From Aquabacterium sp. (lineage in GTDB: Bacteria > Pseudomonadota > Gammaproteobacteria > Burkholderiales > Burkholderiaceae_C): 64,000 bases of DNA. A model generated the notes under the pieces. That model ran no database searches and was not told where the DNA came from. It saw only the letters and a program-made list of their open reading frames with translations. This document shows positions 791 to 15,725 of this stretch, one piece after another. Numbering within the stretch: the first letter of the stretch is position 1; the number at the start of each line of letters is the position of its first letter. Location: the NCBI RefSeq assembly GCF_029946005.1, contig NZ_JAQSDR010000012.1:124001-188000 (forward strand), read 5' to 3'. The translations under genes and the position numbers were made by a program.

Positions 791-921
791 GGGGGCTCCA
801 GGTGAGACAAAGCGAGAGAGAGCACTTCAGCAATCGAAGCGAATCTCCCGGGCTTTTGTCCCGCCGTGGAGCCTGCGTTGGTGAATGTGCCAACTCAGGC
901 CGATGGCTCTCGGACCAGACA

Positions 922-1047: not shown

Positions 1048-1081
1048 ACAATCGCCAGTCACCATGTGAAGGTCCCCAGCC

Positions 1082-2182: not shown

Positions 2183-2276
2183 GTCGAGCGCATCGCGCTT
2201 TGCACTTCTTAACCGCGTCCGCCGGCCGCATCTTCGGGTAGGCTGGCGGGTTTCGCGCTAGACCACAAGGACCCCC

Positions 2277-3464
2277 ATGAACAACATTGGCTCAGCCAAG
2301 CCCCGCTGGAAGATCGCCATCGCGGTGTTCACCGCCTGCTTCACCGCGTCGGTCGTCACCCCGACCCTGGCCGCGATCGCCATCGCGCCTGCGCCCACCT
2401 TGGAGAACACCGCCTACGTGGTGATGGACTTCGAATCGGGCCGCATCCTGTCGCAGGTCAATGCCGAGCAGCCCTTGCCGCCCGCCTCGCTCACCAAGAT
2501 GATGACCAGCTACATCGTTGAGCAGGCCTTGAAGACCGGCCGCCTCAAGCCCACCGACATGGTCAGCGTCAGCGAAAACGCCTGGTGCCGCGGCACCAAC
2601 GCCGAATCCTGCATGTACCTGCCGGTGCACGGCTCCGCCTCGGTCATCGACATCCTGCGCGGCATCATCGTGCAGTCGGGCAATGACGCGTCCAAGGCCA
2701 TCGCCGAACACATGGCCGGCAGCGAAGCCTCTTTCGCCGTCTTGATGAACAAGGAAGCCGAACGCCTGGGCATGAAGAACACCCACTTCGCCAATGCCAC
2801 CGGCCTGCCCGACCCCACGCACCGTGCCTCGGCGCACGACCTGGCCCTGCTGGCCCGCGCCATCATCCGCGACAGCTCGGACTACTACAAGATCTACTCC
2901 GAGAAGGAGTTCAAGTACAACGGCATCAAGCAGGGCAACCGCAATGCGCTGCTGTACACCGACTCGTCCGTGGATGGCTTGAAGACGGGCCACACCGCCG
3001 AAGCAGGTTTCTGCCTGACCGCCTCCAGCAAGCGCAATGACATGCGTTTGATCTCGGTGATCATGGGCGCCAAGAGCATGCAGGCGCGCGCCGACCAGAC
3101 CCGCGCGCTGTTCAATTGGGGCTTTGGCTCGTTTGAAGACGTCAGGCCCGTGGCCGCGAACGTGTCCCTGGCCACGCCCAAGGTGCGCTTCGGCAAGGCC
3201 GACGTGGTCAACGTGGGCCTGCTGGCCCCGATGGTGGCCACCATCCCGCGTGGCCAGGCGGCCAACGTCAAGACGGACATCCAGCTCACCCCCGGCATCA
3301 CCGCACCGATCGCCAAGGGCGCGGTGCTGGGCAAGGTCGTGATCACGCTGGATGGCCAAAGCCATGGCGAGCAGGCCCTGGTGGCACTGGAGCCAGTCGA
3401 AGAAGCTGGGTTCTTCGCGCGCCTGTGGCAGCGCATCAAGGAATTCTTCAGCAGCAGCAAGTGA
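2277..3464 (+). CDS. dacC: D-alanyl-D-alanine carboxypeptidase, PBP5/6 type
   Basis: Low-molecular-weight penicillin-binding protein that trims the terminal D-Ala from peptidoglycan stem peptides in the periplasm. Its 395 residues match the family. An N-terminal hydrophobic segment (about 12-33) is a signal peptide. All three active-site motifs are present: SLTK with nucleophile Ser71 and Lys74, SGN at 134-136, and KTG at 236-238. The C-terminal PBP5-type beta domain is followed by a short amphipathic tail (FFARLWQRIKEFF) that should anchor it to the inner membrane. The start has AAGGA five bases upstream. dacA would be an equally fair symbol; paralogues cannot be separated from this sequence alone. 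Confidence 0.93.
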   Translation: MNNIGSAKPRWKIAIAVFTACFTASVVTPTLAAIAIAPAPTLENTAYVVMDFESGRILSQVNAEQPLPPASLTKMMTSYIVEQALKTGRLKPTDMVSVSENAWCRGTNAESCMYLPVHGSASVIDILRGIIVQSGNDASKAIAEHMAGSEASFAVLMNKEAERLGMKNTHFANATGLPDPTHRASAHDLALLARAIIRDSSDYYKIYSEKEFKYNGIKQGNRNALLYTDSSVDGLKTGHTAEAGFCLTASSKRNDMRLISVIMGAKSMQARADQTRALFNWGFGSFEDVRPVAANVSLATPKVRFGKADVVNVGLLAPMVATIPRGQAANVKTDIQLTPGITAPIAKGAVLGKVVITLDGQSHGEQALVALEPVEEAGFFARLWQRIKEFFSSSK

Positions 3465-3472
3465 GCAACACG

Positions 3473-3513
3473 CGGGCAGGCATCAACGCTTCACGGTTGA
3501 TGCATCCTGCCCG
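3473..3513. terminator. bidirectional hairpin between convergent genes
   Basis: CGGGCAGG-CATCAAC (3473-3487) pairs with GTTGATG-cat-CCTGCCCG (3496-3513), a 15-bp stem with one 3-base bulge. It lies 9 bases after the carboxypeptidase stop and covers the last codons of the convergent glutathione transferase. There is no clear U tract on either strand, so termination is inferred from position. Confidence 0.5.
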
Positions 3514-4187
3514 AACAAGTGCTGGCGTGAGCTTTCGTCCACGGTCGGTTTGGCTGCAGGGTTGACCTCTTCCGCGCGGGCATAGGCGCGCACGGTGGCC
3601 GGCCGAGCCTTGATGGCCTCGAACCAGCGCTTGACGTTGGGGAAGTTGTTCAAATCCTGCTGCTGGCGCTCGTGAGGCACCACCCAGGGGTAGCTGGCCA
3701 TGTCGGCGATGGAGTACTCGCCCGCCAGGAACTCGCGGTCGGCCAGGCGCTTGTCCATCACGGCGTACAGGCGAGCAGTTTCCTTCACGTAGCGCTCAAT
3801 GGCGTAGGGCAGTTTCTCAGGCGCGTACTGGCTGAAATGGTGGTTCTGTCCGGCCATGGGGCCCAGGCCACCCATCTGCCAGAACAGCCATTGCAGCGTG
3901 TCATTTCGGCCGCGCAAGTCTGGCGCCATGAACTGGCCGGTCTTGTCCGCCAGGTACAGCAAGATGGCGCCTGATTCGAACAAGGGCAGGGGCTCGCCGC
4001 CATCCGTGGGCGCGTGGTCCACGATGGCCGGGATGCGGTTGTTGGGCGCGATGCGCAAAAAATCAGGCGCGAATTGCTCACCCTTGCCAATGTGAACGGG
4101 CTTGATCCGGTAAGGCACCTGCGCCTCTTCCAGGAACAGGGTGATCTTGTGGCCGTTGGGCGTGGTCCAGTAGTAAAGGTCGATCAT
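3483..4187 (-). CDS. yfcG: glutathione S-transferase, YfcG-like disulfide reductase
   Basis: A 234-residue cytoplasmic glutathione transferase closely resembling E. coli YfcG, which has GSH-dependent disulfide-bond reductase activity. The N-terminal thioredoxin fold starts MIDLYYWTTPNGHKITLFLEE with the YfcG-typical Thr9/Asn11 in place of a catalytic Tyr/Ser/Cys. It continues with the cis-Pro NNRIPAIVD segment, GSH-binding FESGAILLYLA, then the helical C-terminal domain with QWLFWQMGGLGPMAGQNHHF. The start is the ATG at 4187 because similarity begins exactly there and AAGAG lies 7 bases upstream; the frame stays open upstream but that part has no family resemblance. Convergent with the carboxypeptidase gene. 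Confidence 0.92.
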   Translation of the reverse strand: MIDLYYWTTPNGHKITLFLEEAQVPYRIKPVHIGKGEQFAPDFLRIAPNNRIPAIVDHAPTDGGEPLPLFESGAILLYLADKTGQFMAPDLRGRNDTLQWLFWQMGGLGPMAGQNHHFSQYAPEKLPYAIERYVKETARLYAVMDKRLADREFLAGEYSIADMASYPWVVPHERQQQDLNNFPNVKRWFEAIKARPATVRAYARAEEVNPAAKPTVDESSRQHLFGQDASTVKR

Positions 4188-4327
4188 GTCGGGTCTCTTT
4201 GGAAGTGGCGCCGCCAGTGTGCCCTCCTTGCGGATCACCCAAGGCTGACTGGGGGTACTCTGCGGGCGCGCTGATTGCTCAAGGGCTGAGGGCACTCCTG
4301 CCCGGCTTGAATCAGGGGATCCGCGAG

Positions 4328-4966
4328 ATGCTCGAAAAACTTCCCGGTGTGATCGGCCACGTTCTGCTCGACCAGCGTGCCGGGCTGGACAAGCTGGCAT
4401 TCAACAAGGTGGGCTTGCGCTCTGGCATGGCGGCCATCACGGTGTCCAGCCTGGCCTTTCAAGACCATGCGCCCCTGCCTGTTTTGTACACGGCCGATGG
4501 TGCGGGCACCTCGCCCTCCTTGCAATGGACCGGCTTGCCCGCACAAGCCCAGTCGGCCGTGTTGATCGTGGAGGACGCTGACGCGCCCACGCCCCAGCCG
4601 CTGGTCCATGCCATCGTGGTTGGCCTGCCGCCAGGGGATGGCGCTCTGCGCGAGGGCGCCCTCGATGAGGATGAGGGGCACGCACCGGAGTGGGCGTGCG
4701 GGCTGAACTCATTCCTGCAAGCCCATTGGCTGCCACCGGATCCGCCGCCCGGGCATGGGGTGCACCGCTACGCCTTCCAGTTGTTCGCGCTGTCGACCAT
4801 GCCGGCTTGGTCTGCCAAACCTGGGCGAGAAGAAGTGCTGGAGATTTTGCAAACCCATGCCGTTGCCAGTGGCTGCCTGATCGGCACCTACGAGCGCCCA
4901 GATGGTTCGCAAAAGATTGAACAAGCCGAGCCAGCCGCAGTGCCTTTGGGCGCTTCGGCCGTTTAG
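4328..4966 (+). CDS. YbhB/YbcL family Raf-kinase-inhibitor-like protein
   Basis: Phosphatidylethanolamine-binding-protein fold, 212 residues from the chosen ATG. Visible family signatures are LVEDADAP-type sequence (IVEDADAPTPQPLVH) around residues 80-94, the phosphate-pocket histidine in LVHAIVVGLP, and HRYAFQLFAL followed by a GCLIGTYER ending. The N-terminal 35 residues (MLEKLPGVIG...) are an extension seen in betaproteobacterial members. The start at 4328 is placed by that resemblance, with AGGGG nine bases upstream; the open frame continues back to 4199. The molecular role of bacterial members is unknown. Convergent with the next gene. Confidence 0.82.
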   Translation: MLEKLPGVIGHVLLDQRAGLDKLAFNKVGLRSGMAAITVSSLAFQDHAPLPVLYTADGAGTSPSLQWTGLPAQAQSAVLIVEDADAPTPQPLVHAIVVGLPPGDGALREGALDEDEGHAPEWACGLNSFLQAHWLPPDPPPGHGVHRYAFQLFALSTMPAWSAKPGREEVLEILQTHAVASGCLIGTYERPDGSQKIEQAEPAAVPLGASAV

Positions 4967-4989
4967 GCGCTGAGATCTGGCCGGGCGGT

Positions 4990-5220
4990 TCAGCGCAGCA
5001 AGCGGTCGATCACCAGGCCCGTGGCAAAGGCGATCAAAACGCTGCGCAGCGGCCGTTTTCGCACATGGTCACCGGCGGAAGCCAGCCACGCCTGGCGTGT
5101 TTCGCTCAAGGTTTCCGCTTTCGCTGCGGCACGGTCCACGGCATGGTGGGCCGCCCGGGCCAGGCGTTCAACTGCCTCGTTCGCCCTGATTCGTTCTGTG
5201 GCGGGAATGGTGTGGGTCAT
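4990..5220 (-). CDS. ElaB/YqjD/DUF883-like small membrane-anchored protein
   Basis: 76 residues from the ATG at 5220 (AGGAG eight bases upstream). It is a helical charged N-terminal part (RIRANEAVERLARAAHHAVD) followed by the family's C-terminal layout: a basic RKRPLRS segment and one hydrophobic helix with glycine (VLIAFATGLVIDRLLR). E. coli ElaB and YqjD are tail-anchored inner-membrane proteins that bind ribosomes in stationary phase, so a similar location is likely. Family membership is judged from layout and motif; function is inference. Confidence 0.7.
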   Translation of the reverse strand: MTHTIPATERIRANEAVERLARAAHHAVDRAAAKAETLSETRQAWLASAGDHVRKRPLRSVLIAFATGLVIDRLLR

Positions 5221-5281
5221 GGCCGAGTCTCCTGATGTGAAAGAGATGCCTTCGACGCGGCAAACCACATGCCTGCAGGGC

Positions 5282-5749
5282 TTAATCCTTCACAGGAATG
5301 CGCTTGGCGCGGTCCACCGCCACGGCCGTGACGCTGTTCTGTGGTGAACCCTCAATGACGCGGTCCGAGTAGGTCAGGTAGACCAGGGTGTTGCGCTTGA
5401 CATCCACCATGCGCACGATGCGCAGCTTCTTGAAGATCAGCGAGATGCGTTCGCTGAACACCTCCTCCTGGATGGGCAGCGGGCCGCTGATGGTGATGGG
5501 GCCCACCTGGCGGCAGGCGATGGAGGCTTCGGACCGGTCTTCGGCCAAGCCCAGCGCCCCCTTGATGCCGCCCATCTTGGCCCGCGAAACGTAGCAGGTC
5601 ACGCCCGCCACCTTGGGGTCATCGTGCGCGTCGATCACGATCTTGTGATCAGGCCCGATGAACTTGAACACGGTGTCGACTTCGCCAATGGATTCAGCGT
5701 GAACCCAGGCCGAACAGGCCAGCAGGGCCAAGGCCAGGATTCTCTTCAT
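5282..5749 (-). CDS. creA: CreA family protein
   Basis: 155-residue periplasmic protein of unknown biochemical role (CreA family). A signal peptide [18 protein letters not shown] is followed by [43 protein letters not shown] and [13 protein letters not shown], all characteristic of CreA, with two conserved cysteines. The start is the ATG at 5749 with AGGAGA five bases upstream; the start codon overlaps the stop of the upstream lipoprotein gene (ATGA), so the two are probably translated together. Length and motifs look intact. Confidence 0.9.
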
Positions 5750-6081
5750 GGCTTCTCCTGAACAGGTGGGCAACGGTAGGTTTTGGCCACGACGGTGGTG
5801 CTGGTGTAGCCAGCGTCGGGGCGGTCCCACACCACGTGGGTGGCGCCCTGCACATCGGCCCGGCGCAGCAGCTCCTGTCTGATGTCGTCGGCGCCCTTCA
5901 GCGCGAAAAAGCCGGACAGGCCAGAGCTGCCGCTTATCTCGCCCAGGTACTGGCAGCGCGCCATGGCGCCGATTTCGCTGGCCACCACCGATCCGGCGTA
6001 ACGTGGGTGGGACATGGTGCCGCAAGCGGCCAGACCGCCTGTGGCGGCCAAAAGGAGGAGGGTGAGGCGCAGGTGTGTCAT
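5746..6081 (-). CDS. DUF4156-like lipoprotein
   Basis: 111 residues from the ATG at 6081. The N-terminus is a lipoprotein signal, [20 protein letters not shown], with lipobox LAAC, so it should be lipid-anchored. The mature part has [12 protein letters not shown] and [10 protein letters not shown], a pattern like YjeI/DUF4156 lipoproteins. It overlaps creA by 4 bases. An upstream in-frame start would add ten residues before the signal peptide and is less likely. Function unknown. Confidence 0.75.
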
Positions 6082-6123
6082 GCGCCCACTGTAGCCTGAT
6101 AAAACCAAGCCGTCAGCCCACCC

Positions 6124-6498
6124 TCAGCCTTGGGTTAACCACAGCGTGACGCTGATCAAGCCCGTGACGGCGCCGAGCAGCGCAACGCCTGTCAGCCACA
6201 TCACCCTCACCCGATTCGTCTCAATGCCTTGGATGAGTTGGGCGTTCTGCTCTGCCAGGGCTTTGATCAACTCTGACGAAGCCACCAACTGCTCGTGTGT
6301 CTGGGCTACGGTGGCTTCCAAGGTCGACACGCGGCTTTCCAGCGCCGACGCTGAGGGAGGCGCCTCAGGTGTGGCCGTGGCCGGCTTCTTGGACACGGTG
6401 CTCCACAGCTTCTTGGCCCCTTCTGCCACCTTTGGCGCGTTGCTGATCACGTCCGACCAGGGAACCGCTTGCAAGACCGAGAGCCAACCAATCGCCAT
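6124..6498 (-). CDS. hypothetical coiled-coil membrane protein
   Basis: 124 residues from the ATG at 6498. A central predicted coiled coil (ESRVSTLEATVAQTHEQLV through LAEQNAQLIQGIETNR) is followed by one C-terminal transmembrane helix (VMWLTGVALLGAVTGLISVTLWL), suggesting a tail-anchored inner-membrane protein with its coiled coil in the cytoplasm. The stretch between residues 30 and 55 is low-complexity Ala/Pro/Thr. I do not recognise a named family. It is divergent from the EamA transporter. Confidence 0.65.
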   Translation of the reverse strand: MAIGWLSVLQAVPWSDVISNAPKVAEGAKKLWSTVSKKPATATPEAPPSASALESRVSTLEATVAQTHEQLVASSELIKALAEQNAQLIQGIETNRVRVMWLTGVALLGAVTGLISVTLWLTQG

Positions 6499-6632
6499 GA
6501 GGACGTCCTTCAGTGAGTTTGCGTGAGCTTGAAGGGCCCATTCTGGCACCGTGCGCCCATTTTTACTTTTGCACCGAAACCACTCAAGCAGGCAACGTGG
6601 AAGCGTTCAAACTGCAGGCTGCTTGGTTCTCC

Positions 6633-7706
6633 ATGGTTTTCATGCGCAAATTTTCCTTGTCAGGCCACCAACGCCTGCCCGCCCTGCGCGGTGGCTTCAT
6701 GGCGTTGGTGGCGGCCGTCCTCTTTGGCGTTAGCACCCCTTTGGTTCAACGTTGGGGCTTGCACATCGGCACGTTTTCGACCGCCGCGTTGTTGTACGCG
6801 GGCGCTTCGCTGATTGGTTTTGGCTTGCGGCGAAAGGTTGACCGCGAGGCCCAGGTGCAAGGCGGCGATGTGCCTCGCCTGGCGCTGATGGCCCTCTTTG
6901 GCGCCATGATCGGGCCGGTGGCCTTGGCTTGGGGCTTGCAGAACACCAGCGGTACCAGCGCATCGCTGATGTTGGCACTGGAAGCCGTGTTCACCGCCGT
7001 GCTGGCCTGGCTTTGGTATGGCGAAACCATCGACCGCCGGGTGATGTCGGCGATGACCTTGCTGACGCTGGGGGGCATGGTGTTGGTGCTTGACCGCACC
7101 GATGCCGGCGGCAGTGAGGTGGCGGGTTTGTTGGCCGTCATGGCCGCCACGGCGGCATGGGGCGTGGACAACGCCTTGTCACGCGCCCTGGCGCAGCGAG
7201 ATCCTGGTCAGGTGGTGATGCTCAAGGGGGCCATCGGGGCCACGGCCACGGCTGCTTTGGCCGTGTTTTTTGGCGAGCCCGTGCCCGCAGCGTGGCCGGC
7301 CCTGGGTTTGCTCCTGGTGGGGGCCAGCGGTTACGGCCTCAGCTTGCGCTTTTACCTGCTGGCGCAGCGTGCTTTCGGGGCGGCCAGGACGGGCTCGGTC
7401 TTCGCGTTTGCGCCCTTCATCGGCGCCTTGTTGGCGGCCACCTTGGGCGAGGGCATCAACCTTTGGATGCTGGGCGGTGCGGCGCTGATGATGGGAGGGC
7501 TGGTGCTGCATCTGGCCGAGACGCACGCGCACGAACACGAGCACGCGCCGATGGTGCATGAACACGCGCACTCGCATGACGATGGGCACCATGGGCACGA
7601 GCATGATCCGATGCCCGTGGGGATGCACAGCCATCCTCATCGCCACGAACTGGTCCGGCATTCGCATGCACACGTGCCCGATGAGCACCATGCGCATCCG
7701 CATTGA
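6633..7706 (+). CDS. EamA/DMT family exporter with histidine-rich C-terminal tail
   Basis: Drug/metabolite-transporter superfamily permease with two EamA repeats, each about five helices, the first starting near GGFMALVAAVLFGVSTPLVQRWG and the second near GLLAVMAATAAWGVDNALSRALA. After the last helix (MLGGAALMMGGLVLHLAETH) comes a tail of about 60 residues containing 23 histidines, which suggests metal binding or sensing on the cytoplasmic side. The start is uncertain: ATG at 6633 or 6642, or a GTG at 6513; none has a good ribosome-binding site. Transport of a metal or metal chelate is inferred only from the tail. Confidence 0.85.
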   Translation: MVFMRKFSLSGHQRLPALRGGFMALVAAVLFGVSTPLVQRWGLHIGTFSTAALLYAGASLIGFGLRRKVDREAQVQGGDVPRLALMALFGAMIGPVALAWGLQNTSGTSASLMLALEAVFTAVLAWLWYGETIDRRVMSAMTLLTLGGMVLVLDRTDAGGSEVAGLLAVMAATAAWGVDNALSRALAQRDPGQVVMLKGAIGATATAALAVFFGEPVPAAWPALGLLLVGASGYGLSLRFYLLAQRAFGAARTGSVFAFAPFIGALLAATLGEGINLWMLGGAALMMGGLVLHLAETHAHEHEHAPMVHEHAHSHDDGHHGHEHDPMPVGMHSHPHRHELVRHSHAHVPDEHHAHPH

Positions 7707-7735
7707 GGGGCAGATGCCTTGGCTTCGAACTTGGA

Positions 7736-8077
7736 CTACTTGGCAGCCGCATAGAAGCGCTGGATTGTGGCGCTGCGAAGGATGTAGGTGCCCACGCCTA
7801 TCACGAGTGATGCCCAAAGCAAGGCCGCCACAAGGTGGACACCGGAAACGTCAGCCCGCAGCAGCTGAATCAGCGCATCAGCCCCAAGGACGATGCACAG
7901 CCAAGCCAATGCCTGGGCGGCAGCGCGCTTGCGCAGCAAGGCGGCCACGCTCAACCCACCCAGCAAGGCCGACCAGGCCAGGGCCGTGGCCAAGGGGCTG
8001 CCGACCACGAACACGATGGCCACCCTGGCGATGACCACCGTGGCCAGCAGGAAGACGAGCAAGCGCGGTGCGGCCAT
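7736..8077 (-). CDS. hypothetical integral membrane protein
   Basis: 113 residues with four predicted transmembrane helices (about 4-26, 31-48, 54-75 and 82-102) and very short loops. No family recognised. The ATG directly follows the stop of yggL (TGA-ATG, no gap) with AAAGG just upstream, so translation is likely coupled and both genes share a transcript. It is convergent with the EamA exporter, 29 bases apart. Confidence 0.7.
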   Translation of the reverse strand: MAAPRLLVFLLATVVIARVAIVFVVGSPLATALAWSALLGGLSVAALLRKRAAAQALAWLCIVLGADALIQLLRADVSGVHLVAALLWASLVIGVGTYILRSATIQRFYAAAK

Positions 8078-8425
8078 TCAGCCTTTGAGCTTGGTCCGCT
8101 GTTGTGCTGCTGGGGTGGAGTACCACATGTCCACCAAAGCTGTGGCAGACAAGGTGGCCACTTCAGGGCGTGCGGCGAGCCAGGCAAGCACCTCGGAGCG
8201 CTCTTCTTCCGTCACGCTTTGCGGGCCAAGCTTGTCAATGGCGCCACCTGTGGCCCATCCACCAAAGCTCAGGCTGCGGGGCTCAATGGCTTGGGCCAGG
8301 AAGGCGTCCACCAGGGCCTCGTCGTCTGCGTCCTTGGCCAGTTCTGCCTCGAACAGGAATCCCAGTTGCTGGAACTCGCCGACGCGCAGTTTCTTGCGCA
8401 AGCGCCGACTTCTTGTTTTTGCCAT
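8078..8425 (-). CDS. yggL: YggL family 50S ribosome-binding protein
   Basis: 115 residues, the DUF469/YggL family whose E. coli member associates with the large ribosomal subunit. It starts MAKTRSRRLRKKLRVGEFQQ, the diagnostic basic N-terminus, followed by LGFEV-like and DAFLAQAIEPRSLSFGGW segments. The start is the ATG at 8425; the frame extends upstream but similarity does not. The C-terminal 20 residues are more variable. First gene of a two-gene unit with the small membrane protein. Confidence 0.88.
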   Translation of the reverse strand: MAKTRSRRLRKKLRVGEFQQLGFLFEAELAKDADDEALVDAFLAQAIEPRSLSFGGWATGGAIDKLGPQSVTEEERSEVLAWLAARPEVATLSATALVDMWYSTPAAQQRTKLKG

Positions 8426-8506
8426 GTTTTCTTTCTGTTTTGAAGGGATCTGGGTATTTTGAGGGGTCCAGTCAAGGATCATCCGCGTGGGCCCTCGCCA
8501 TCGTCC

Positions 8507-9085
8507 TCAGAATCCGAACTTGGAGCCTGCGCCCAGCAAGGTCGCCACGCCCAAAATCGCAAAGATGGCAGCGGCCATCGAATGCACCAGCTTCATCGGT
8601 ATCCTGCCGGCCAGCTTGTTGCCCACCAACACGGCGGGCACATCGGCGATCAGCATGCCCAGCGTGGTGCCCATCACCACCATCACAGGCGCCGCGTAGT
8701 GGGCGGCCATGGCAATGGTGGCGATCTGGGTCTTGTCACCCATCTCTGCCAGGAAAAAGGTGATCAGCGTGGCGCCAAAGACGCCAAAGCGCGCGGCGAC
8801 CTGGGTCTCTTCTTCCTCAATTTTGTCGGGGATCAGGGTCCAGATGGCCATGCCGATGAAAGACGCCCCCAGCACCCAGCGAAGAACTTCGGGGCTGACA
8901 GAACTGGTGATCCAGGCCCCCAAGGCGCCCGCCAGACCGTGGTTCACCACGGTGGCCGCCAAAATGCCCAGAATGATGGGCACGGGCTTCTTGAAGCGCG
9001 CGGCGAGAATGAACGCCAGGAGTTGAGTCTTGTCGCCAATTTCTGCAAGGGCGACGACTCCTGTGGAGACGAGCAAAGATTCCAT
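8507..9085 (-). CDS. mneA: TMEM165/GDT1 family manganese exporter
   Basis: 192-residue inner-membrane protein of the UPF0016/GDT1 family, which exports Mn2+ (MneA in Vibrio) or moves Ca2+/Mn2+ in eukaryotes. Both signature repeats are present, EIGDKTQ at residues 15-21 and EMGDKTQ at 114-120, each at the start of a three-helix bundle. An acidic loop (IEEEET) separates them. The start is the ATG at 9085 with GGGGA upstream. It lies directly behind a yybP-ykoY manganese riboswitch, which strongly supports manganese as substrate. Symbol given by family analogy. Confidence 0.92.
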   Translation of the reverse strand: MESLLVSTGVVALAEIGDKTQLLAFILAARFKKPVPIILGILAATVVNHGLAGALGAWITSSVSPEVLRWVLGASFIGMAIWTLIPDKIEEEETQVAARFGVFGATLITFFLAEMGDKTQIATIAMAAHYAAPVMVVMGTTLGMLIADVPAVLVGNKLAGRIPMKLVHSMAAAIFAILGVATLLGAGSKFGF

Positions 9086-9113
9086 GAAATTTCCCCAGGC
9101 CGGATACAGACGA

Positions 9114-9158
9114 TTGACCACCACGCATCCCCGGCCAGGTCGGAGGCGTGGTGGTCAA
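9114..9158 (-). promoter_or_regulatory. expression-platform hairpin after the manganese aptamer
   Basis: TTGACCACCACGC (on the minus strand from 9158) and its exact complement at 9114-9126 form a 13-bp perfect stem with a 19-base loop, between the 3' end of the aptamer and the gene's ribosome-binding site. The left edge of this stem touches the aptamer's last bases (CTTTG), so aptamer folding and this hairpin could compete. No U tract follows, so control of ribosome access is likelier than termination. The mechanism is inference. Confidence 0.55.
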
Positions 9159-9256
9159 AGGTCTTGCCAGGTGCGGGACTGCTGACGCCATGGCCTGCGG
9201 GCCAAGTGTGTTGACGTCAGCCTCTTCGAGGCGAAGAGCGGCTACTCCCCAATGAC
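9156..9256 (-). ncRNA. yybP-ykoY manganese riboswitch aptamer
   Basis: Read on the minus strand, the leader of the exporter holds the conserved elements of this aptamer in order: GGGGAGTAGCC at the 5' side, GTCAACACACTTGG and CATGGCGTC in the two internal-loop strands, and CTGGCAAGACCTTTG at the 3' end. Between them are self-complementary variable stems such as CTCTTCGCCTCGAAGAG. The family senses Mn2+ and turns on export genes such as mntP and TMEM165-type exporters, exactly the gene that follows. Boundaries are approximate. Confidence 0.9.
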
Positions 9257-9358
9257 CCTGAGATGGTAGCAGTCAATCCATCGCTGACCCGGCAGTTGTT
9301 ACCCGGTTATTTCGGTTGGTGCCGCTGGCTTCCTGCACCTTGGCCATTGAGACGAAAA

Positions 9359-9417
9359 AAATCCCTAAGTCGTTGATTACTTAGGGATTTTTGGGTCTCA
9401 AGAATCGTCTTGAGACC
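9359..9417 (-). terminator. tandem hairpins, probably the displaced original ssrA terminator
   Basis: Two stems lie just left of the left attachment repeat. GGTCTCAAGA/TCTTGAGACC (9394-9403/9408-9417) is a perfect 10-bp stem with a 4-base loop. ATCCCTAAGT/ACTTAGGGAT (9361-9370/9379-9388) is a perfect 10-bp stem followed, on the minus strand, by a run of T. That makes the second a good leftward intrinsic terminator. There is no gene immediately upstream of it except, across the mobile element, ssrA. Confidence 0.7.
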
Positions 9418-9423
9418 ATTGAA

Positions 9424-9440
9424 TGGTGGAGCCGGGGGGA
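9424..9440. repeat. distal attachment-site repeat of the element
   Basis: TGGTGGAGCCGGGGGGA, identical to the 17 bases at 15354-15370. It is the complement of the tmRNA 3' terminus including CCA. Past base 9440 the sequence no longer matches the tmRNA T arm, so this is a duplicated core rather than a second tmRNA gene. Confidence 0.9.
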
Positions 9441-9728
9441 GGCGAACCCGTGCCCAGTTTTCCAATCAAATCAGCGACTTAGCCAAGTTGCGACGTGTAA
9501 GTGGCACACCTAAATGGCACACCGACCTGATCCTACACGGTTCGGTTCCGTTTGTGGGAATTGAACCGGCGTCCTGATGTTGGACGCTTTGCCCAATGCG
9601 CATCCCAGCAGACTGCCTTAGAAGCCCGTAGGTTCGCTTATTTTTATTCCCCAAGGGGTAGGGGTGGAGAGTTGTCCGAATCGCCGTAGGCGAGGAAAAG
9701 AGAGGTGCAAACCGGTTGCAAACCAGTG
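9441..9728. other. non-coding left end of the mobile element
   Basis: Apart from the paired repeats this stretch holds no convincing gene. A tRNA-like fragment occurs at about 9556-9600 on the minus strand: a 6-bp stem GCGTCC/GGACGC with a 7-base loop, followed by GGTTCAATTCC as in a T arm. The T stem does not pair properly and position 33 is not T, so it is at best a degenerate tRNA. Confidence 0.5.
9502..9523 (+). repeat. paired 9-bp repeats, candidate integrase arm sites (left end)
   Basis: TGGCACACC-taaa-TGGCACACC, two direct copies with a 4-base spacer, 61 bases inside the left attachment repeat. The same pair with the same spacing and orientation recurs at 15269-15290, 63 bases inside the other end. 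This is the arrangement expected of arm-type sites of a tyrosine integrase. Inference from symmetry of position. Confidence 0.7.
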
Positions 9729-10958
9729 TCAAACTGGACGGGGTTTTTTTAACCGACCTTGTGTAAGGATCGGCGTTTTTAAAAAAGTGCCCGAGTAGAA
9801 AACGACCAGGGTCGATGTTTGACCGTTTTTCTCTAAGACTTCGTCTTTCCGTAGGGCAGGCGCCTGCGCCGCCCGACCTGTTGAAGGTGGAATGATATTT
9901 GTTGATGGATGAGAGAAGCGCGTAGCGGTTCGAGCTTTCATCAACAAAGCTTCTTCTTGTTTGGAGTGATGTTGATCCTGTATGGTTCTTGTATATGTAT
10001 TAATAGTATTTAGAGTTGCAATGCCGCTCCCTATGGGCAGGGGTGAATTTTTGACGTAAATTCCCGGTAAACATGCATGCGCTGCCTTCTTGCTGCGAAC
10101 TGAGCGGGTGAGGTTTCTAAGCGCATCGGCGGCGGATTTGTTCAGTTTCGAATCGGCTTCCAAACAGCTTCGCGATTGACGCTCATGATTGGCTTTTTTT
10201 GTTGCGTCTCGTGGCTGGCCAAGAATTGTAATTTTCTTGAGTGCGCTTCGTTCGTCCTCTCCAATATCAGGCCGTTCTTTCAGCCACTTGAAGTAACAAG
10301 CGAGGGAGGCGAAGTTGAAGGCTTCCATTTCCTCAAGTGTCTTAAAGGGGACTTGTCCACCCTGAAGTCTTACCTCAACTCTGGCGCGATACTGGCTAGT
10401 AGGAAGCGGAATTCCATTATCTTTTGTCTTGACGTAAATGCGCATAATCAGGTCCGCGTCTATTTTACCCATGAAAAGAGTGCGCCCTTCATTCAGGTAA
10501 GGTATTAAAATTGGATGCATCGGGCTACCCCAAACTCTGCGCCCTCGCATGGCGAGTAGCCTGTGGGCGGCCCTTGGTGCTACAGGGTGCCGCAGGTATT
10601 TATAGCGGCTAAATGCTATTTTGGCCAATACCAAAGTATCAGGATGATAAGTGTCTACAGCGACTTCAATGCCTGAGATCAGGATAGGTCCAGCAAGGGG
10701 GAACTTCTGGTTTAACTTGGCCTCAATTTCTCTGCAACAAGCTATTGATTTCGGATTTTGAAGACGCAAGATAAATCTCTTAGTGGGTGTGTTTTCGCCT
10801 TGTCGGCCTTCCTCGATATCAAGCGGCTTGACATGGCTAATCCCCAAATCTTTGAAATGCTTCCATATATTGAATGCCACATGCCTACCCAGAGCATTGA
10901 TTTCAAGATCAATCCAATCTAGGCATGCTCTTGTTGGCCCCGTTGCGTTATAATTCAT
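9729..10958 (-). CDS. putative replication-initiator-like protein of the mobile element
   Basis: 409 residues. Residues 159-200 (RTLFMGK..., then MRIYVKTKDNG and ARVEVRLQG) follow the pattern of Rep_trans-type initiators (RstA of filamentous phages, RCR plasmid Rep, Tn916 Orf20): a gsr-like strand, RiYdK, then RvElrlrg. An N-terminal DWIDLEI segment also resembles the start of such proteins. The last 120 residues are basic and low-complexity, unlike a folded domain. It would nick or open the element's own origin; three hairpins stand just upstream. The match is by eye and modest, so another element-specific DNA-binding role is possible. Confidence 0.5.
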   Translation of the reverse strand: MNYNATGPTRACLDWIDLEINALGRHVAFNIWKHFKDLGISHVKPLDIEEGRQGENTPTKRFILRLQNPKSIACCREIEAKLNQKFPLAGPILISGIEVAVDTYHPDTLVLAKIAFSRYKYLRHPVAPRAAHRLLAMRGRRVWGSPMHPILIPYLNEGRTLFMGKIDADLIMRIYVKTKDNGIPLPTSQYRARVEVRLQGGQVPFKTLEEMEAFNFASLACYFKWLKERPDIGEDERSALKKITILGQPRDATKKANHERQSRSCLEADSKLNKSAADALRNLTRSVRSKKAAHACLPGIYVKNSPLPIGSGIATLNTINTYTRTIQDQHHSKQEEALLMKARTATRFSHPSTNIIPPSTGRAAQAPALRKDEVLEKNGQTSTLVVFYSGTFLKTPILTQGRLKKPRPV

Positions 10959-10973
10959 TGCGTTTATTTGTCG

Positions 10974-11064
10974 CCATGTTTCAGCATGGTTTATTAAGTC
11001 ATTACTGACTTATGTTCTTAAGGCCGCTTGGATAGCGTTGGTCGCGCTATCCAAGTGACCTTAA
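10974..11064. other. three-hairpin cluster, candidate origin region of the element
   Basis: Three successive dyads fill the gap between the Rep-like start (10958) and the 57-residue gene. They are CCATG/CATGG at 10974-10978/10985-10989, TAAGTCA/TGACTTA at 10995-11001/11006-11012, and a 20-bp stem at 11018-11037/11045-11064 with only two G-U pairs and a 7-base loop. No U tract follows the large stem on either strand. Rolling-circle origins often sit beside the initiator gene and contain such hairpins. Confidence 0.45.
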
Positions 11065-11069
11065 ATTAC

Positions 11070-11243
11070 TTAGATGCCATGTTCACTTAGCAAAATAGAT
11101 TTCCCGTGCAAGTCATTGATAATCAAAGACTTGATTCCGTCGCTGTTGATGAGGTGAACAATAGCGAATCCGGCATCAATGGTTTGTTCAATATTTGCCG
11201 CTTCCAAAAAATCAGCGGCTTCGCTCAAAGTCATTTCACGCAT
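11070..11243 (-). CDS. small hypothetical protein of the mobile element
   Basis: 57 residues, beginning MREMTLSEAADFLEAANI and ending in ILLSEHGI. The composition is acidic and mixed helix/strand, like a small folded cytoplasmic protein, and the frame is clean in an AT-rich stretch. It has TGGAAAA upstream of the ATG at 11243. It lies between the two overlapping small genes and the hairpin cluster, on the same strand, so probably in the same transcript. No family recognised; a copy-control or accessory role is guesswork. Confidence 0.55.
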   Translation of the reverse strand: MREMTLSEAADFLEAANIEQTIDAGFAIVHLINSDGIKSLIINDLHGKSILLSEHGI

Positions 11244-11290
11244 TTCATTTTTCCAGGTGGTGGGCGCATGGTCCCGGCGCCCCGTGCGGG

Positions 11291-11704
11291 TTAGTTAATG
11301 AATGAATTTTTCGAAGTGTGACTTCGATAGGGTGCCCGAGGGGGAATGCAACGAGCGACCGGACTGTGGGAGCATTTCGGTGTTTCCTTGATTTCCGGTA
11401 GCACGCGATATTTCCAATACGTAGTGTCCGCTGGACTTAGATTCACAATCTTGTATTGCACTTTTGTTGCGGGGGGACTGCAAGATATCGCCTTTTCAAC
11501 AAATTCGGCGACATCTTTCGGAAGGTAATGCGGACGTTTAACGCGCTCGTCTTTGACGTATACGCAAGGTAAAAGTTCCAGTCCATGAAAAGTTGTTTTA
11601 TTGCGAATACAGTCAGCTAGAAAATCTGCCCAAGCTCGTTGTGCCCCCAGTTTCTTGTAAAGAATCCGGACAACTTCGGTTTGTGGAAGAACTATTGTTT
11701 TCAT
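11291..11704 (-). CDS. hypothetical protein of the mobile element (137 aa)
   Basis: 137 residues. The middle (GLELLPCVYVKDERVKRPHY and then LPKDVAEFVEKA) looks like an excisionase-type winged-helix motif, where a P-C-V-x-V strand and an R-Y-x-x-x-D-V-x-x-F helix recur, but the resemblance is weak. The C-terminal 35 residues are proline/serine-rich. Its start codon overlaps the stop of the upstream gene (ATGA), so both are co-translated. No firm function. Confidence 0.55.
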   Translation of the reverse strand: MKTIVLPQTEVVRILYKKLGAQRAWADFLADCIRNKTTFHGLELLPCVYVKDERVKRPHYLPKDVAEFVEKAISCSPPATKVQYKIVNLSPADTTYWKYRVLPEIKETPKCSHSPVARCIPPRAPYRSHTSKNSFIN

Positions 11705-12258
11705 TTTCGTTCTTTCAGTCGCATCACTTTCATGTTCGCGTTGTCAGTGACGGTCTCATAGTTTTCAGAAAAATCTGTTCCCTGAGGGTTTTCCTTCCGC
11801 TTAAGATAATCGCCCACTTCGGTGAGTTCTTTCCCGAACTTAATGGCTTGCTCTGGCGTGATCGTGAAAACCATTAAAGGTTCGTCAATGATCATCCGGA
11901 CGTAGTGGCCGGTGAGGCGATCGTATTGAGCGGTGACACTTCCGCCCTTGAAGACTCTCCCTCGAGATGAGCCGCTGTCGTCAATAATCCCAAATGCCTG
12001 TAAAACCTGGGCGGTTTGCCCCGTCAGCGTGATAGTGCCCAGCTTGCGCATTTTTTCCCATTCGACATATTTTGATAATTCTTCCCGTTTGTAAAAGATG
12101 CCTCCTGCAAGGCGTTCAAACGGGATTCGATAAGAAACGCGGCGCGTTTGGTTTCTGTTGTTCTGCAACCATGCGGCCCACTGCACTGGGTCCTTTTCAG
12201 GTAGCAGTTCTGAAAGAGCATCGGCGGACACGCTATTGCTCAGGAGTTCTGTAATCAT
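11701..12258 (-). CDS. hypothetical protein of the mobile element (185 aa), possible DNA-binding
   Basis: 185 residues from the ATG at 12258; a TTG at 12285 would add nine. Residues 45-75 (RVSYRIPFERLAGGIFYKRE, then ELSKYVEWEK) resemble the helix-turn-helix/strand layout of AlpA/MerR-like excisionase proteins. The rest shows mixed alpha/beta character. It is the first gene after a good sigma-70-like promoter (12270-12298) and overlaps the next gene by 4 bases. A regulatory or excision role is inference. Confidence 0.55.
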   Translation of the reverse strand: MITELLSNSVSADALSELLPEKDPVQWAAWLQNNRNQTRRVSYRIPFERLAGGIFYKREELSKYVEWEKMRKLGTITLTGQTAQVLQAFGIIDDSGSSRGRVFKGGSVTAQYDRLTGHYVRMIIDEPLMVFTITPEQAIKFGKELTEVGDYLKRKENPQGTDFSENYETVTDNANMKVMRLKERK

Positions 12259-12269
12259 TTGTATTGATT

Positions 12270-12298
12270 TAATTAAGTTGCCCAATGGTAATTGTCAA
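12270..12298 (-). promoter_or_regulatory. sigma-70-like promoter for the leftward element operon
   Basis: On the minus strand a perfect TTGACA (12293-12298) is followed after exactly 17 bases by TAATTA (12270-12275), just upstream of the 185-residue gene. Because the -10 box is only 11 bases before that ATG, its message would be nearly leaderless. Confidence 0.6.
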
Positions 12299-12347
12299 TC
12301 AACAAACAGTCAATCACGAAAGATTTGCGTCTGAGTCCCTGCAGGTG

Positions 12348-12460
12348 TGGGCGAAACTCAAGCATTTCGCCCACCTTCAAAGCCCCTGGGCGAAAGATAG
12401 CCCCTAAGGACTTTTGTCCTATGCTACATTTCGCTCATGACATTCGCCCACTTTGGGCGA
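12348..12460. promoter_or_regulatory. six TGGGCGAAA half-sites, candidate res/operator region
   Basis: Between the divergent 185-residue gene and the serine recombinase lie copies of TGGGCGAAA in both orientations. Forward copies are at 12348-12356, 12387-12395 and 12454-12460 (7 of 9). Reverse copies are at 12365-12373, 12443-12450 (8 of 9) and 12429-12437 (one mismatch). The first two make a perfect 9-bp inverted repeat and 12444-12460 makes another. An AGGAC/GTCCT dyad lies at about 12406-12420. This looks like a recombinase recombination/autoregulation site. Confidence 0.6.
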
Positions 12461-12466
12461 TAGGGG

Positions 12467-13063
12467 ATGAAAGTGCGTTTGTTTGCCTACTGCCGCGTTT
12501 CGACAACCGGACAAGACACCGAGGGCCAGATTGCAGAGATTGCCGCCGCTGGCTTCAACATTGAGTCACAGAGGGCAGTTGCAGAACAAGTGTCCGGCTC
12601 AGTCGCCGCCCGACTTAGAAAAGGGTTTGCGAAGCTTTTGGACCGCTTAGAAGGCGGTGATGTGCTTGTTGTGACAAAGCTTGACCGATTGGGTCGAGAT
12701 GTCATTGACGTATGCCAAACCGTTCAGGACTTGCAGCAACGGGGGGTGAGGGTCCACTGCCTTCAATTAGGGGGCATGGACCTTACAAGCTCATCGGGGG
12801 CGATGGTGATGGGGGTCATGGCGTCGGTCGCTCAGTTTGAACGCGCGCTAATTTTGGAAAGAACCGACGCCGGTAGGAAACTGGCGAAGGCGAAGGGCGT
12901 GAAATTTGGAAGAAAATCCGCCCTCACTGAGGCTCAGCAAGCCCAGGCAAACGAACTACTTGCGGCTGGCCAGACAGTTTCAGGTGTGGCGTTGCAATTC
13001 AAGACCAGCCGGAAGACCATTCAACGGGTCAAGGCAAAATATGAAGATATCGTATCTCTCTAA
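12467..13063 (+). CDS. serine recombinase, resolvase/invertase family
   Basis: 198-residue small serine recombinase. The catalytic domain begins MKVRLFAYCRVSTTGQ with nucleophile Ser12, continues with VVTKLDRLGRD (arginine active-site motif) and MASVAQFERALILERTDAG (E helix), and ends with a helix-turn-helix near residues 165-190 (TVSGVALQFKTSRKTIQRVK). This is a complete Tn3-resolvase-like layout. The ATG has AGGGG directly against it with no spacing; the GTG at 12473 has the same AGGGG at a proper six bases, so that start (Ser10) is also plausible. Its likely role is dimer resolution of the excised element. It is transcribed against the rest of the element. Confidence 0.92.
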   Translation: MKVRLFAYCRVSTTGQDTEGQIAEIAAAGFNIESQRAVAEQVSGSVAARLRKGFAKLLDRLEGGDVLVVTKLDRLGRDVIDVCQTVQDLQQRGVRVHCLQLGGMDLTSSSGAMVMGVMASVAQFERALILERTDAGRKLAKAKGVKFGRKSALTEAQQAQANELLAAGQTVSGVALQFKTSRKTIQRVKAKYEDIVSL

Positions 13064-13071
13064 ATACCATT

Positions 13072-13623
13072 CTAGTTGGCTTCTACTATAAGACCGGGCT
13101 TAAGAGAGCAGCTATACCCTTTTGGTTCCTTCATTGGGCCTGACAAAGTGTCTCGCGTGAACATTATTGCGTAGCTTAAATTCAATGCGAAAAAAAGGTC
13201 AGGAGATTTATTTTGGCGCCGGTTTAGGAAGGTTTTAAGACGTTCGTCCGTGCTGCTAGTCGATCCGCTTCCGGATATATACGCGGTTGCTTGATATGTG
13301 TCCGCCGAATGTTCGTCGACAAGAAAAAACCCGAAATTTGATATGTTTTGTTCCTTTGCCAGCTTAAGTATTTCTTCTTTGCACGTAATGTAAAGTGATC
13401 GAAGCTTTTTCTCACTGGCTTTCATTAATTCGCTTTCAATCGTTGCTTGCTCAGCTTTGTATTCTCGTAAGAATTTTTCGTCTGCCAATTCTTTTATTCT
13501 AATTTGTTCAGCCGTTTTTGGTGGTGGATATTCCTTTTGCTCACTACATGCCAACAAAATGAGCGCCGTGGCAGCAACGAAAAGTGAAATTGTCGCACCT
13601 TTGAAAATCATTGACCAATGCAT
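13072..13623 (-). CDS. hypothetical lipoprotein of the mobile element
   Basis: 183 residues with an N-terminal signal and lipobox (ATALILLAC, Cys about 26), then a lysine/glutamate-rich predicted helix (residues 37-95) and a mixed C-terminal part. It should be anchored in the cell envelope facing the periplasm. The coding sequence is AT-rich compared with the chromosome. It lies between the integrase and the serine recombinase (convergent, 8 bases apart). No family recognised; surface lipoproteins on small elements are sometimes exclusion factors, which here is only a guess. Confidence 0.6.
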   Translation of the reverse strand: MHWSMIFKGATISLFVAATALILLACSEQKEYPPPKTAEQIRIKELADEKFLREYKAEQATIESELMKASEKKLRSLYITCKEEILKLAKEQNISNFGFFLVDEHSADTYQATAYISGSGSTSSTDERLKTFLNRRQNKSPDLFFALNLSYAIMFTRDTLSGPMKEPKGYSCSLKPGLIVEAN

Positions 13624-13650
13624 TTGGTTCCCCCCAATGTTATGTTGCTA

Positions 13651-15252
13651 TCAGGCGGCACAGGGGCCTTTATGAGATGGCTTCCGCCCCGGAGCGTCGG
13701 TGAATTTAACCTCTTCAACCGTTGGTAGCATGGCTATCACCTCTTTGGGCAAGTTGAACGCATCCACGGTCGGTTTTCTCATGGATGCGTCTCGCTTGTT
13801 CCAATAAACTTTACCGGTCACTAAATCGGCTTCGTGTCCGACTATCGGCGCAAGTAAATGGGGCGTTATGCCAGCATCCATTATCTTTGTAATAAAAAGG
13901 TGCCGGAAGCTGTGGAAGACGGTCTGTTGTTTTCCAGTGATGCCAACTTTAGCGCGATACCGCTGGAACCAGTTTGACGGCGCATGACCCGGGCCGTCCC
14001 GTCGCTCAAGGTTGAGTTCGGGAAAGAGGTTCGTTTCTCCTGCGAGCCTTTGCTTTTCTACGTGCCTCAATAGCCCGATGCGGATCAGTTCGGGATGGAT
14101 TGGCACTAGTCGTTTAGCGCTTGGTGTCTTGACGCGCTTTTTCCGATTCCCGGACTCTCCTTCTGTGTTCGACGCTTTGTCGTTGATGTCAATGCATGGG
14201 ATGCCGTCCACTTCAACAAAATCTCCCAGTTCGAGCTGGCAAAGCTCGCCTAGCCGCGCTCCAGTGAACAGCGCCAGAGGTATCAGCCAAAAGCTGTAGG
14301 AGGATTTGAATTTTTTCTTTAGAAAATCAGGATGGCTAAGCAATACCCGTAGTTCGTCAACAGTGAACGGGCGCCGCTTTTCATCGCCCGTGTCTTGCTG
14401 GCCAAAACCTTTAAAGGGGTTGGAATCGATTCCCCATTTACGTTTTTCCTCAAGCGCCCATTCGAACATAGAGCTGATCCGCTCCATCTTCTTGCTTGCA
14501 TTGGCTTCGGTTTGAGGGGGGGCCTTTAGGTCAAGTAGCTCCTGAATGCTTTTGCCTCGATATTCGGCCTTCCTGCTAAGGTTGGCCGGTAACTGTTTCA
14601 GGATGCCGAAGTATTCGCCCGCTACCTCTCTATCAATGGCCCCGATGTGCACATCTTCCATAACCGTGATGAAGAAGCCAATTTCGGCTCGATAGGCTTC
14701 TAGCGTCTTCTCGGTGGGCGGTTTCTTTACTCCGCCCTTTGGCCGACGCAGAAGACTGGCGAGATAGGCCTCCTGAAGCGCAGAAAACAGGGGCGATTCT
14801 TCTGGAGGGGGAGGAAAAACGAGGGCGCGTTCCAACTCTTTCTTGCCCTCAAGCTGCCCCCTCTCGTGCATTCGTATGGCAACTTGTTGGACGTGCTGAC
14901 GCGGGACCATCCGCTCAATCTGTGCTCGCAGCTCCGTGACCTCATGCTGAAGCAGGCTGATTCGCGCTTTCTTGACCGCTCCTTGAAGCAGTTCGCTACG
15001 CCACTTGGCGAAGTAGTCTGCGGGAGGCGCCTCGTCGTTTACTGCCATGTTGTGAAGGTCCGCCATCAGTAGGGGGATGGCGGAAATTAGCGGAAGCGCT
15101 AAGTCTATGGCTAGTTCACGTTGTTCGGTGTGCAGGCTAAACCGAAGTTCGCTGCGGTTGGCTACGCTTCGAAGCTGTGAAGGAATCACGATACGGAAGT
15201 AGAAGATTCCGTGACGGTTCCGATAGATGCGTGATGCGACCCGTATGGGCAT
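13651..15252 (-). CDS. int: tyrosine recombinase/integrase with DUF6538-like N-terminus
   Basis: 533 residues. The N-terminus (RNRHGIFYFRIVIPSQLR, residues 11-28) matches the arm-binding DUF6538 type. The catalytic domain has all expected residues: Arg333 in TGARLGELCQL, Lys380 in the beta-hairpin, His447 and Arg450 in HSFRH, His473 in GHE, and Tyr483 in KVYWNKRD. The start is the ATG at 15252 with GGAGG five bases upstream; the frame is open further up but runs into the attachment region. The gene begins 17 bases from the paired repeats at 15269-15290, so the integrase may repress itself. It catalyses integration of the element into ssrA. Confidence 0.94.
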   Translation of the reverse strand: MPIRVASRIYRNRHGIFYFRIVIPSQLRSVANRSELRFSLHTEQRELAIDLALPLISAIPLLMADLHNMAVNDEAPPADYFAKWRSELLQGAVKKARISLLQHEVTELRAQIERMVPRQHVQQVAIRMHERGQLEGKKELERALVFPPPPEESPLFSALQEAYLASLLRRPKGGVKKPPTEKTLEAYRAEIGFFITVMEDVHIGAIDREVAGEYFGILKQLPANLSRKAEYRGKSIQELLDLKAPPQTEANASKKMERISSMFEWALEEKRKWGIDSNPFKGFGQQDTGDEKRRPFTVDELRVLLSHPDFLKKKFKSSYSFWLIPLALFTGARLGELCQLELGDFVEVDGIPCIDINDKASNTEGESGNRKKRVKTPSAKRLVPIHPELIRIGLLRHVEKQRLAGETNLFPELNLERRDGPGHAPSNWFQRYRAKVGITGKQQTVFHSFRHLFITKIMDAGITPHLLAPIVGHEADLVTGKVYWNKRDASMRKPTVDAFNLPKEVIAMLPTVEEVKFTDAPGRKPSHKGPCAA

Positions 15253-15268
15253 GATGACCTCCGCACAC

Positions 15269-15290
15269 TGGCACACCGAAGTGGCACACC
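15269..15290 (+). repeat. paired 9-bp repeats, candidate integrase arm sites (right end)
   Basis: TGGCACACC-gaag-TGGCACACC, the same pair, spacing and orientation as at 9502-9523. It sits between the integrase start and the right attachment core and would overlap the integrase promoter. Confidence 0.7.
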
Positions 15291-15316
15291 TGTGTGGAAA
15301 AGGCCAAGCCGCAATG

Positions 15317-15349
15317 AAAAACGCCAAGTGAAATCAATCACTTGGCGTT
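15317..15349 (-). terminator. intrinsic terminator directly after ssrA, carried by the element
   Basis: AACGCCAAGTG/CACTTGGCGTT (15320-15330/15339-15349), a perfect 11-bp stem with an 8-base loop, followed on the minus strand by TTTTTCATT. It begins 4 bases after the CCA end of tmRNA. Since it lies inside the element's boundary it was brought in with the element and now ends the ssrA transcript. Confidence 0.85.
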
Positions 15350-15353
15350 CAAT

Positions 15354-15370
15354 TGGTGGAGCCGGGGGGA
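15354..15370. repeat. proximal attachment-site repeat inside ssrA 3' end
   Basis: The same 17 bases as 9424-9440, forming the acceptor-stem 3' strand and CCA of the tmRNA. The gene continues intact to the right, so integration preserved tmRNA. Confidence 0.9.
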
Positions 15371-15725
15371 ATTGAACCCCCGTCCGCAAACCATCACCGA
15401 GCAGTTCTACATGTGTAGCCGTCTGATTTGGATCTCACCGACTCTGTCGCGCAGCGGCACGCTACAGAATCCGCCAGTCACTTAATCTTGTTCTCTACCG
15501 AGTGACCCGGCAAAGAACCAGCCAATGTGTATGACCTCACAGTCCTTGTCTTACGACTCAGACCCAGCCCATCGGCCAACTGTTGTGAGGCTCACCGGTT
15601 TTAAGCGGCGAGTGCGAACTTTTGATCGTTTGCAGTTAGTTTGTTTCCAGCCGGATTTACGAGCAAACTGGAGCTCGACATGCCCTACTTCGGATCCGCA
15701 TCCACGTCGAAACCTGGTCGGCCCC
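15354..15725 (-). ncRNA. ssrA: transfer-messenger RNA
   Basis: tmRNA for trans-translation and rescue of stalled ribosomes. The 5' end GGGGCCGACCAGGTTTCGAC pairs with the 3' end CGGCTCC-ACCA over seven acceptor pairs (one G-U). The T arm is GGGGGTTCAATTCCCCC. The resume frame GCA AAC GAT CAA AAG TTC GCA CTC GCC GCT TAA encodes the tag ANDQKFALAA followed by a stop, close to the usual betaproteobacterial tag. Total 372 bases including the encoded CCA. The last 17 bases are the insertion core of the mobile element. Confidence 0.97.

Follow-up and report, generated by a model that had tools for sequence, protein, structure and literature searches.

A small element integrated at the tmRNA gene of an Aquabacterium genome, with a predicted Rep_trans-like rolling-circle initiator

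A window of 64,000 nucleotides from Aquabacterium sp. (contig NZ_JAQSDR010000012.1, positions 124,001 to 188,000) contains a small element inserted at the 3' end of ssrA, the gene for transfer-messenger RNA (tmRNA). The element encodes a tyrosine integrase, a small serine recombinase and a protein resembling the Rep_trans rolling-circle initiators. This gene set recurs in three other bacteria; the element is therefore likely to be mobile, able to leave the chromosome and to copy itself. We consider it probable that it is a minimal element that integrates and replicates by rolling circle, a Gram-negative counterpart of the Rep_trans integrative and mobilizable elements (IMEs) of streptococci. 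A preliminary description of this DNA had proposed an ssrA-integrated element of about 5.9 kb with these three proteins, and the observation is confirmed (Table 1).

The tmRNA gene occupies positions 15354-15725 on the minus strand, and its final 17 bases (TGGTGGAGCCGGGGGGA on the plus strand) are present both at 9424-9440 and at 15354-15370. The identity covers exactly 17 bases, with no extension on either side. Since the terminal 17 bases of the tmRNA recur at 9424-9440, the element proper spans 9424-15353 (5,930 bp); the end given in the preliminary description, 15370, takes in the second repeat. The GC content of the element is 0.49, compared with 0.63-0.65 in the nearest unaffected 3-kb bins. 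Close to each end lies a repeat of the form TGGCACACC-N4-TGGCACACC, a candidate arm site for the integrase. With up to three mismatches allowed, this motif was found at either end of the element and nowhere else in the 64 kb, against 0.03 occurrences expected, and a chance origin was rejected on these grounds. In Rfam, all matches of the element stayed under the gathering score, including one to tmRNA at 9424-9549 (8.2 bits).

Related genomes show what the site looks like without the insertion. The tmRNA query was matched in 39 of the 41 congeneric genomes searched, and the tmRNA surroundings were compared in 18 of these 39. In three of them (loci L048, L049 and L060) the 77-nt flank found at 9347-9423 in the window, whose hairpin has its arms at 9357-9370 and 9379-9392, directly adjoins the tmRNA with 91-95% identity; this insertion is thus absent from those three. 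A fourth locus (L058) has a partial, 35-nt match to the flank with the spacing to the tmRNA unchanged, and the remaining 14 had no flank match and are uninformative either way. The seven proteins of the element were unmatched by tblastn (E 1e-3) at all 18 loci. In L048 the 77-nt flank occurs again 5.7 kb away, there lacking the attachment (att) bases, so the flank itself may derive from another element. Immediately past the flank, L048 and L060 carry an unrelated Arm-DNA-bind_3 integrase, and L047 has, by eye, a different integrase-like open reading frame (ORF) at the same place. These other integrases mark the site as a hot spot.

The integrase, the serine recombinase and the Rep-like protein occur together in three other genomes (L071, L082 and L020), so the expectation that the module would be found elsewhere as a unit was confirmed. 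Scanning genome contigs with the integrase gave a single relative, in a metagenome-assembled genome (MAG) of Zoogloea oleivorans (JAOAUC010000027.1; L071). The Zoogloea element is complete at 5,678 bp, has the gene order and orientation of the window and carries the 17-bp site at both ends. Its proteins are 60% (integrase), 38% (serine recombinase), 52% (orf194), 35% (orf137) and 29% (Rep) identical to those of the window, and the slot between integrase and serine recombinase is filled by another gene, of 98 aa. The non-coding DNA of the right end, with its hairpin and arm repeat, is near-identical between the two elements, and the arm repeat stands at both ends of both. A sequence resembling the tmRNA T arm (GGACGnnnGTTCnATTCC) lies within the left arm (window 9556-9574; L071 about 15470-15490) and is present in both elements despite the divergence of the surrounding DNA.

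A search for the integrase in 199 genomes from the family of Zoogloea returned the Zoogloea MAG and two more (L082 and L083). In L082, an element of 8,829 bp bounded by 58-bp repeats of a permuted tmRNA combines the two recombinase genes with a Rep-like gene and a relative of orf57. L020, from the window's own family, has the gene order of the window, its integrase being split and a transposase-like ORF inserted; its flanking genes resemble accA and tilS by eye, and an att repeat was sought there and not found. Rep-like genes turned up in 10 of the 399 genomes searched from the window's family, counting the window's own; the figures for the class and the phylum are 2 of 369 and 4 of 398, and these sets overlap. 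The element is rare and scattered. Two further loci were noted: L019 holds, at 810-9880, an element of 9,053 bp flanked by 18-bp repeats of tRNA-Gly, with a DUF6538 integrase-like protein, a Rep-like gene at the far end and no serine recombinase match; and L025 (7671-10232), the second Rep-like gene of genome G128, lies beside a serine recombinase with no tyrosine integrase seen nearby.

From the tmRNA inward, the genes of the element are the integrase, a 183-aa lipoprotein-like protein, the serine recombinase (on the opposite strand), orf194, orf137, orf57 and the 409-aa Rep-like protein. These seven ORFs were scanned against Pfam, PHROGs and NCBIfam. None of them convincingly matched a family of phage structural or conjugation proteins, in agreement with the preliminary description, and weak matches aside the two recombinases were the only proteins recognised by PHROGs and NCBIfam; the serine recombinase weakly matches a terminase small subunit (E 0.033) over its C-terminal helix-turn-helix region. 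The most likely start codon of the integrase is the ATG at 15252, not the TTG at 15327, because GGAGG lies upstream and this start is common to Zoogloea; comparison with Zoogloea likewise placed the probable start of orf194 at 12258. PADLOC gave no match for the lipoprotein-like protein. The AlphaFold model of orf194 was unusable (pLDDT 38.7), and among 389 genomes of the order this ORF was found only in its own genome, in G128 and as one weak match. A 113-aa ORF of L020 weakly resembles orf137, with a score that 2 of 200 shuffles reached.

Table 1. Features of the element and its borders (window coordinates; L071 is the Zoogloea element)
Position	Strand	Feature	Evidence
9347..9423	-	Flank with hairpin terminator; pre-insertion neighbour of tmRNA	77-nt match adjoining tmRNA in congeners
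9424..9440	-	Left att repeat, 17 bp of tmRNA 3' end	Identical 17 bp in Zoogloea element
9502..9523	+	Left arm repeat, candidate integrase arm site	Motif also in L071
9729..10958	-	409-aa Rep_trans-like predicted rolling-circle initiator; predicted nucleophile Tyr175	Fold matches and motifs
11018..11064	-	19-bp-stem hairpin directly upstream of Rep-like gene, candidate origin	Folding z -7.2
11070..11243	-	orf57, unassigned	tblastn 38%, E 1e-10 in L082
11291..11704	-	orf137, unassigned	35%, E 5e-12 in L071
11701..12258	-	orf194, unassigned; 185 aa from ATG at 12258	52% in L071; N-terminal part in L020, z 13
12347..12460	.	Candidate recombination (res-like) region between divergent genes	TGGGCGAA/TTCGCCCA in inverted pairs
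12467..13063	+	198-aa small serine recombinase, Resolvase + HTH_7	Pfam E 8.4e-37 and 4.4e-10
13072..13623	-	183-aa lipoprotein-like protein, variable (cargo) slot	Lipobox by eye
13651..15252	-	Tyrosine integrase, 533 aa, DUF6538 + Phage_integrase	Pfam; 60% to L071
15269..15290	+	Right arm repeat, candidate integrase arm site	Repeat search; Zoogloea comparison
15320..15349	-	Element-borne hairpin, putative terminator directly behind tmRNA 3' end	12-bp arms; near-identical in L071
15354..15725	-	tmRNA gene (ssrA); last 17 bp = right att repeat (15354-15370)	

Judged by its predicted fold and its active-site motifs, the 409-aa protein (orf409) is a very divergent Rep_trans-like enzyme. When its model was compared with the PDB, RepSTK1 and RepDE led, as the top three entries in both Foldseek and VIA, and membership of an unrelated family, which would have spoken against the preliminary description, was rejected on this result. 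Among the 50 matches listed by VIA there was no further initiator or relaxase family, which excludes nothing. Identity to RepDE and RepSTK1 in the structure alignments is 11-13%. The protein retains the catalytic tyrosine, R-x-Y-x-K, R-x-E and three acidic positions; in the alignment to 4cij and to the Rep_trans motif list, the catalytic tyrosine corresponds to Y175, with R173 and K177 beside it, and motif IV (RxE) to R193 and E195. Each protein-database search scored about 8,000 candidates; one found three orf409 homologs besides the protein itself, and later ones gave seven and five rows, itself included. Plasmid records yielded 28 weak matches at 25% identity, from Enterobacteriaceae and one Acinetobacter, among which the region of one (L002) was examined, and phage records and genome contigs yielded nothing. 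The Zoogloea Rep had no match in phage or plasmid records, orf194 none in plasmid records, and the integrase four partial matches in plasmid records. The closest homolog of orf409, P0002 (64%), lies on an assembly contig of 5,843 bp, near the size of the integrated element; this contig may be a free circle.

The main argument for a replicating stage comes from the serine recombinase, as a serine resolvase would matter mainly for DNA that forms circle multimers. We counted 16 Rep-like loci (the window, L002, L013-L021, L025, L069-L071 and L082), and in seven of them (the window, L071, L082, L020, L025, L014 and L002) a serine recombinase lies no more than 2 kb from the Rep-like gene; for L069 and L070 this check was made by eye only. 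In L002, on the Escherichia fergusonii plasmid pTB31P2, a distant Rep-like protein (25%) lies close to a serine recombinase (4296-6687) that is 68% identical to that of L014. TGGGCGAA/TTCGCCCA has eight copies in the 64 kb of the window, four of them between the serine recombinase and orf194 in a region with a folding z of -5.7, and none of 200 shuffles was as stable as the hairpin at 11018-11064. We picture the cycle of the element as follows. The tyrosine integrase would excise it as a circle through the two 17-bp copies of the tmRNA end, the Rep_trans-like protein is predicted to nick this circle through Tyr175, and the circle would then be copied by rolling circle. Dimers would likely be resolved by the serine recombinase, acting on the TGGGCGAA repeats that separate the divergent genes. 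In the integrated state, the element-borne hairpin would terminate the tmRNA transcript. Passage from cell to cell would be compatible with natural transformation, with a phage and with a conjugative element passing through.

Several observations weigh against an integrative rolling-circle element. The score of orf409 against Rep_trans (PF02486) is 16 bits, below the Pfam gathering cut-off of 29.6, and no PF02486 match above the cut-off was found in three genomes holding relatives; we therefore call the protein Rep_trans-like and do not assign it to PF02486. The likeness put forward in the preliminary description falls under the cut-off by sequence and is carried by fold and active-site motifs. 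The Foldseek TM-scores (0.28-0.34, by query length) are modest, with high rmsd. At motif I (RxD), orf409 has G-x-E, lacking the arginine and having E for D; in this column E98 is found in 18 of 18 rows and R in none, the strand alignment being a manual reading. The Zoogloea Rep gene overlaps its neighbour and has no counterpart of the hairpin upstream, and the gaps beside the serine recombinases of L071, L020 and L025 contain no 8-base word present three times. As Zoogloea has neither a hairpin counterpart nor a triply repeated word, the origin and the res site are guesses. Finally, the integrase relative L083 stands at a tRNA-Gly without a Rep-like gene.

We compared the element with known systems from the literature (PMC3218068, PMC4797284, PMC5714925, PMC6499999, PMC11389934, PMC5357655 and PMC5704250). 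The streptococcal Rep_trans IMEs are the nearest described kind: they too are small, have a tyrosine integrase and target the 3' end of a gene, and their Rep_trans-type protein has been proposed to act in maintenance and/or mobilization. They differ in residing in Firmicutes and in targeting ribosomal-protein genes rather than tmRNA genes of betaproteobacteria, and the element of the window has in addition a small serine recombinase and a Rep far under the Pfam cut-off. Actinomycete integrative and conjugative elements (AICEs) such as pSAM2 likewise combine site-specific integration with their own rolling-circle initiator, but this is of HUH (RepSA) or other types and is accompanied by an FtsK/SpoIIIE-type Tra (PMC3218068); neither an HUH initiator nor such a Tra was matched by Pfam in the seven ORFs. 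RepDE of pT181 type and RepSTK1 of pSTK1 share with orf409 the fold of the catalytic domain, the surroundings of the tyrosine and three acidic metal positions, but they are plasmid-borne and Gram-positive, and orf409 has Glu at the position of RepSTK1 D116 and lacks the motif I Arg (PMC4797284). CTXphi with RstA is, like the element, a Gram-negative integrating replicon with a Rep_trans-type initiator (PMC5714925); the element differs in having no filamentous phage genes and an integrase of its own.

Three other explanations were weighed on the same evidence. The Rep_trans-like protein could be mainly a relaxase acting at an origin of transfer (oriT), with a conjugative element transferring the strand, as in streptococcal Rep_trans/MobT IMEs. 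Size and gene set resemble those of small IMEs, the element has its own integration and excision enzyme and att sites, and Rep_trans proteins of Firmicutes IMEs and integrative and conjugative elements act both as relaxases and as maintenance initiators. We nevertheless find this unlikely: the N-terminal helix-turn-helix that marks MOBT relaxases is absent from orf409, in which Pfam detected no such domain across the 409 aa and the first conserved strand of the model (D14) begins at residue 9. PF03135 (the VirB4 family), the only conjugation family searched, is missing from the window's, Zoogloea and G128 genomes, and the resolvase would point to multimers of a replicating circle.

A phage satellite, replicating by rolling circle and packaged into the particles of a helper such as a filamentous phage, seems more improbable still. 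Rep_trans initiators are known from filamentous phages, the best match of the orf409 model in a viral fold library is an Inoviridae protein (E 1.4e-6), and 5.9 kb would fit a filamentous phage particle. CTXphi-type filamentous phages integrate through the host XerCD, and RS1-type satellites are grouped with them. Zot, a filamentous phage family present in G128, was not found in the host or the Zoogloea genome, Pfam and PHROGs revealed no gene for structure or packaging in the element, phage records held no match, and three alignments found nothing in viral contigs. The earlier suggestion of a satellite borrowing helper machinery has found no support so far, the host genome giving no match to Zot or PF03135, the sole two helper families searched. 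No oriT or packaging site turned up in the element, where no systematic search for them was made. A decaying island that no longer excises and keeps its genes by chance would account for the extreme rarity (among 189 relatives the integrase occurs only in the window's own genome) and for the state of L020. This is the least probable of the three, as the window has all core ORFs, att copies and arm repeats intact and the active-site residues are preserved across wide divergence.

An integrative rolling-circle element of this kind would add to those with their own rolling-circle initiator described from Firmicutes and Actinobacteria. More tentatively, the elements could form an undescribed family of betaproteobacterial integrative rolling-circle plasmids, specialised for ordinary and permuted tmRNA genes and built on a new Rep_trans-like clade unrecognised by Pfam and PHROGs, a suggestion on which we stop a little short of even odds. 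In the open-licence literature, searches for elements of this kind at ssrA or with Rep_trans proteins in Proteobacteria brought up no title or abstract on such a unit, and current family libraries leave the clade unnamed. A compact form of such elements in Gram-negatives, with its resolvase-type recombinase and conserved tmRNA site, would offer a small and testable model for the amplification and spread of integrated islets that lack transfer genes.

Half of the 16 Rep-like loci (L014, L015, L016, L017, L018, L021, L069 and L070) have a defence-family neighbour, among them PDC-S60, type I restriction genes, a DruM-like methylase, PD-Lambda-1, MzaC and a retron reverse transcriptase, in a scan that took in chosen neighbours only, without a control set. 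The wider Rep-like clade, often beside anti-phage genes, may be a general vehicle for small defence or surface-protein cargo. Elsewhere in the window, the low-GC stretch at 33-54 kb (33000-54000) was considered as a helper prophage and rejected, being by eye a cluster of polysaccharide biosynthesis type. The gene to the left of the element is preceded by a manganese riboswitch (9088-9262), and near the start of the window lies a guanidine-I riboswitch (843-960).
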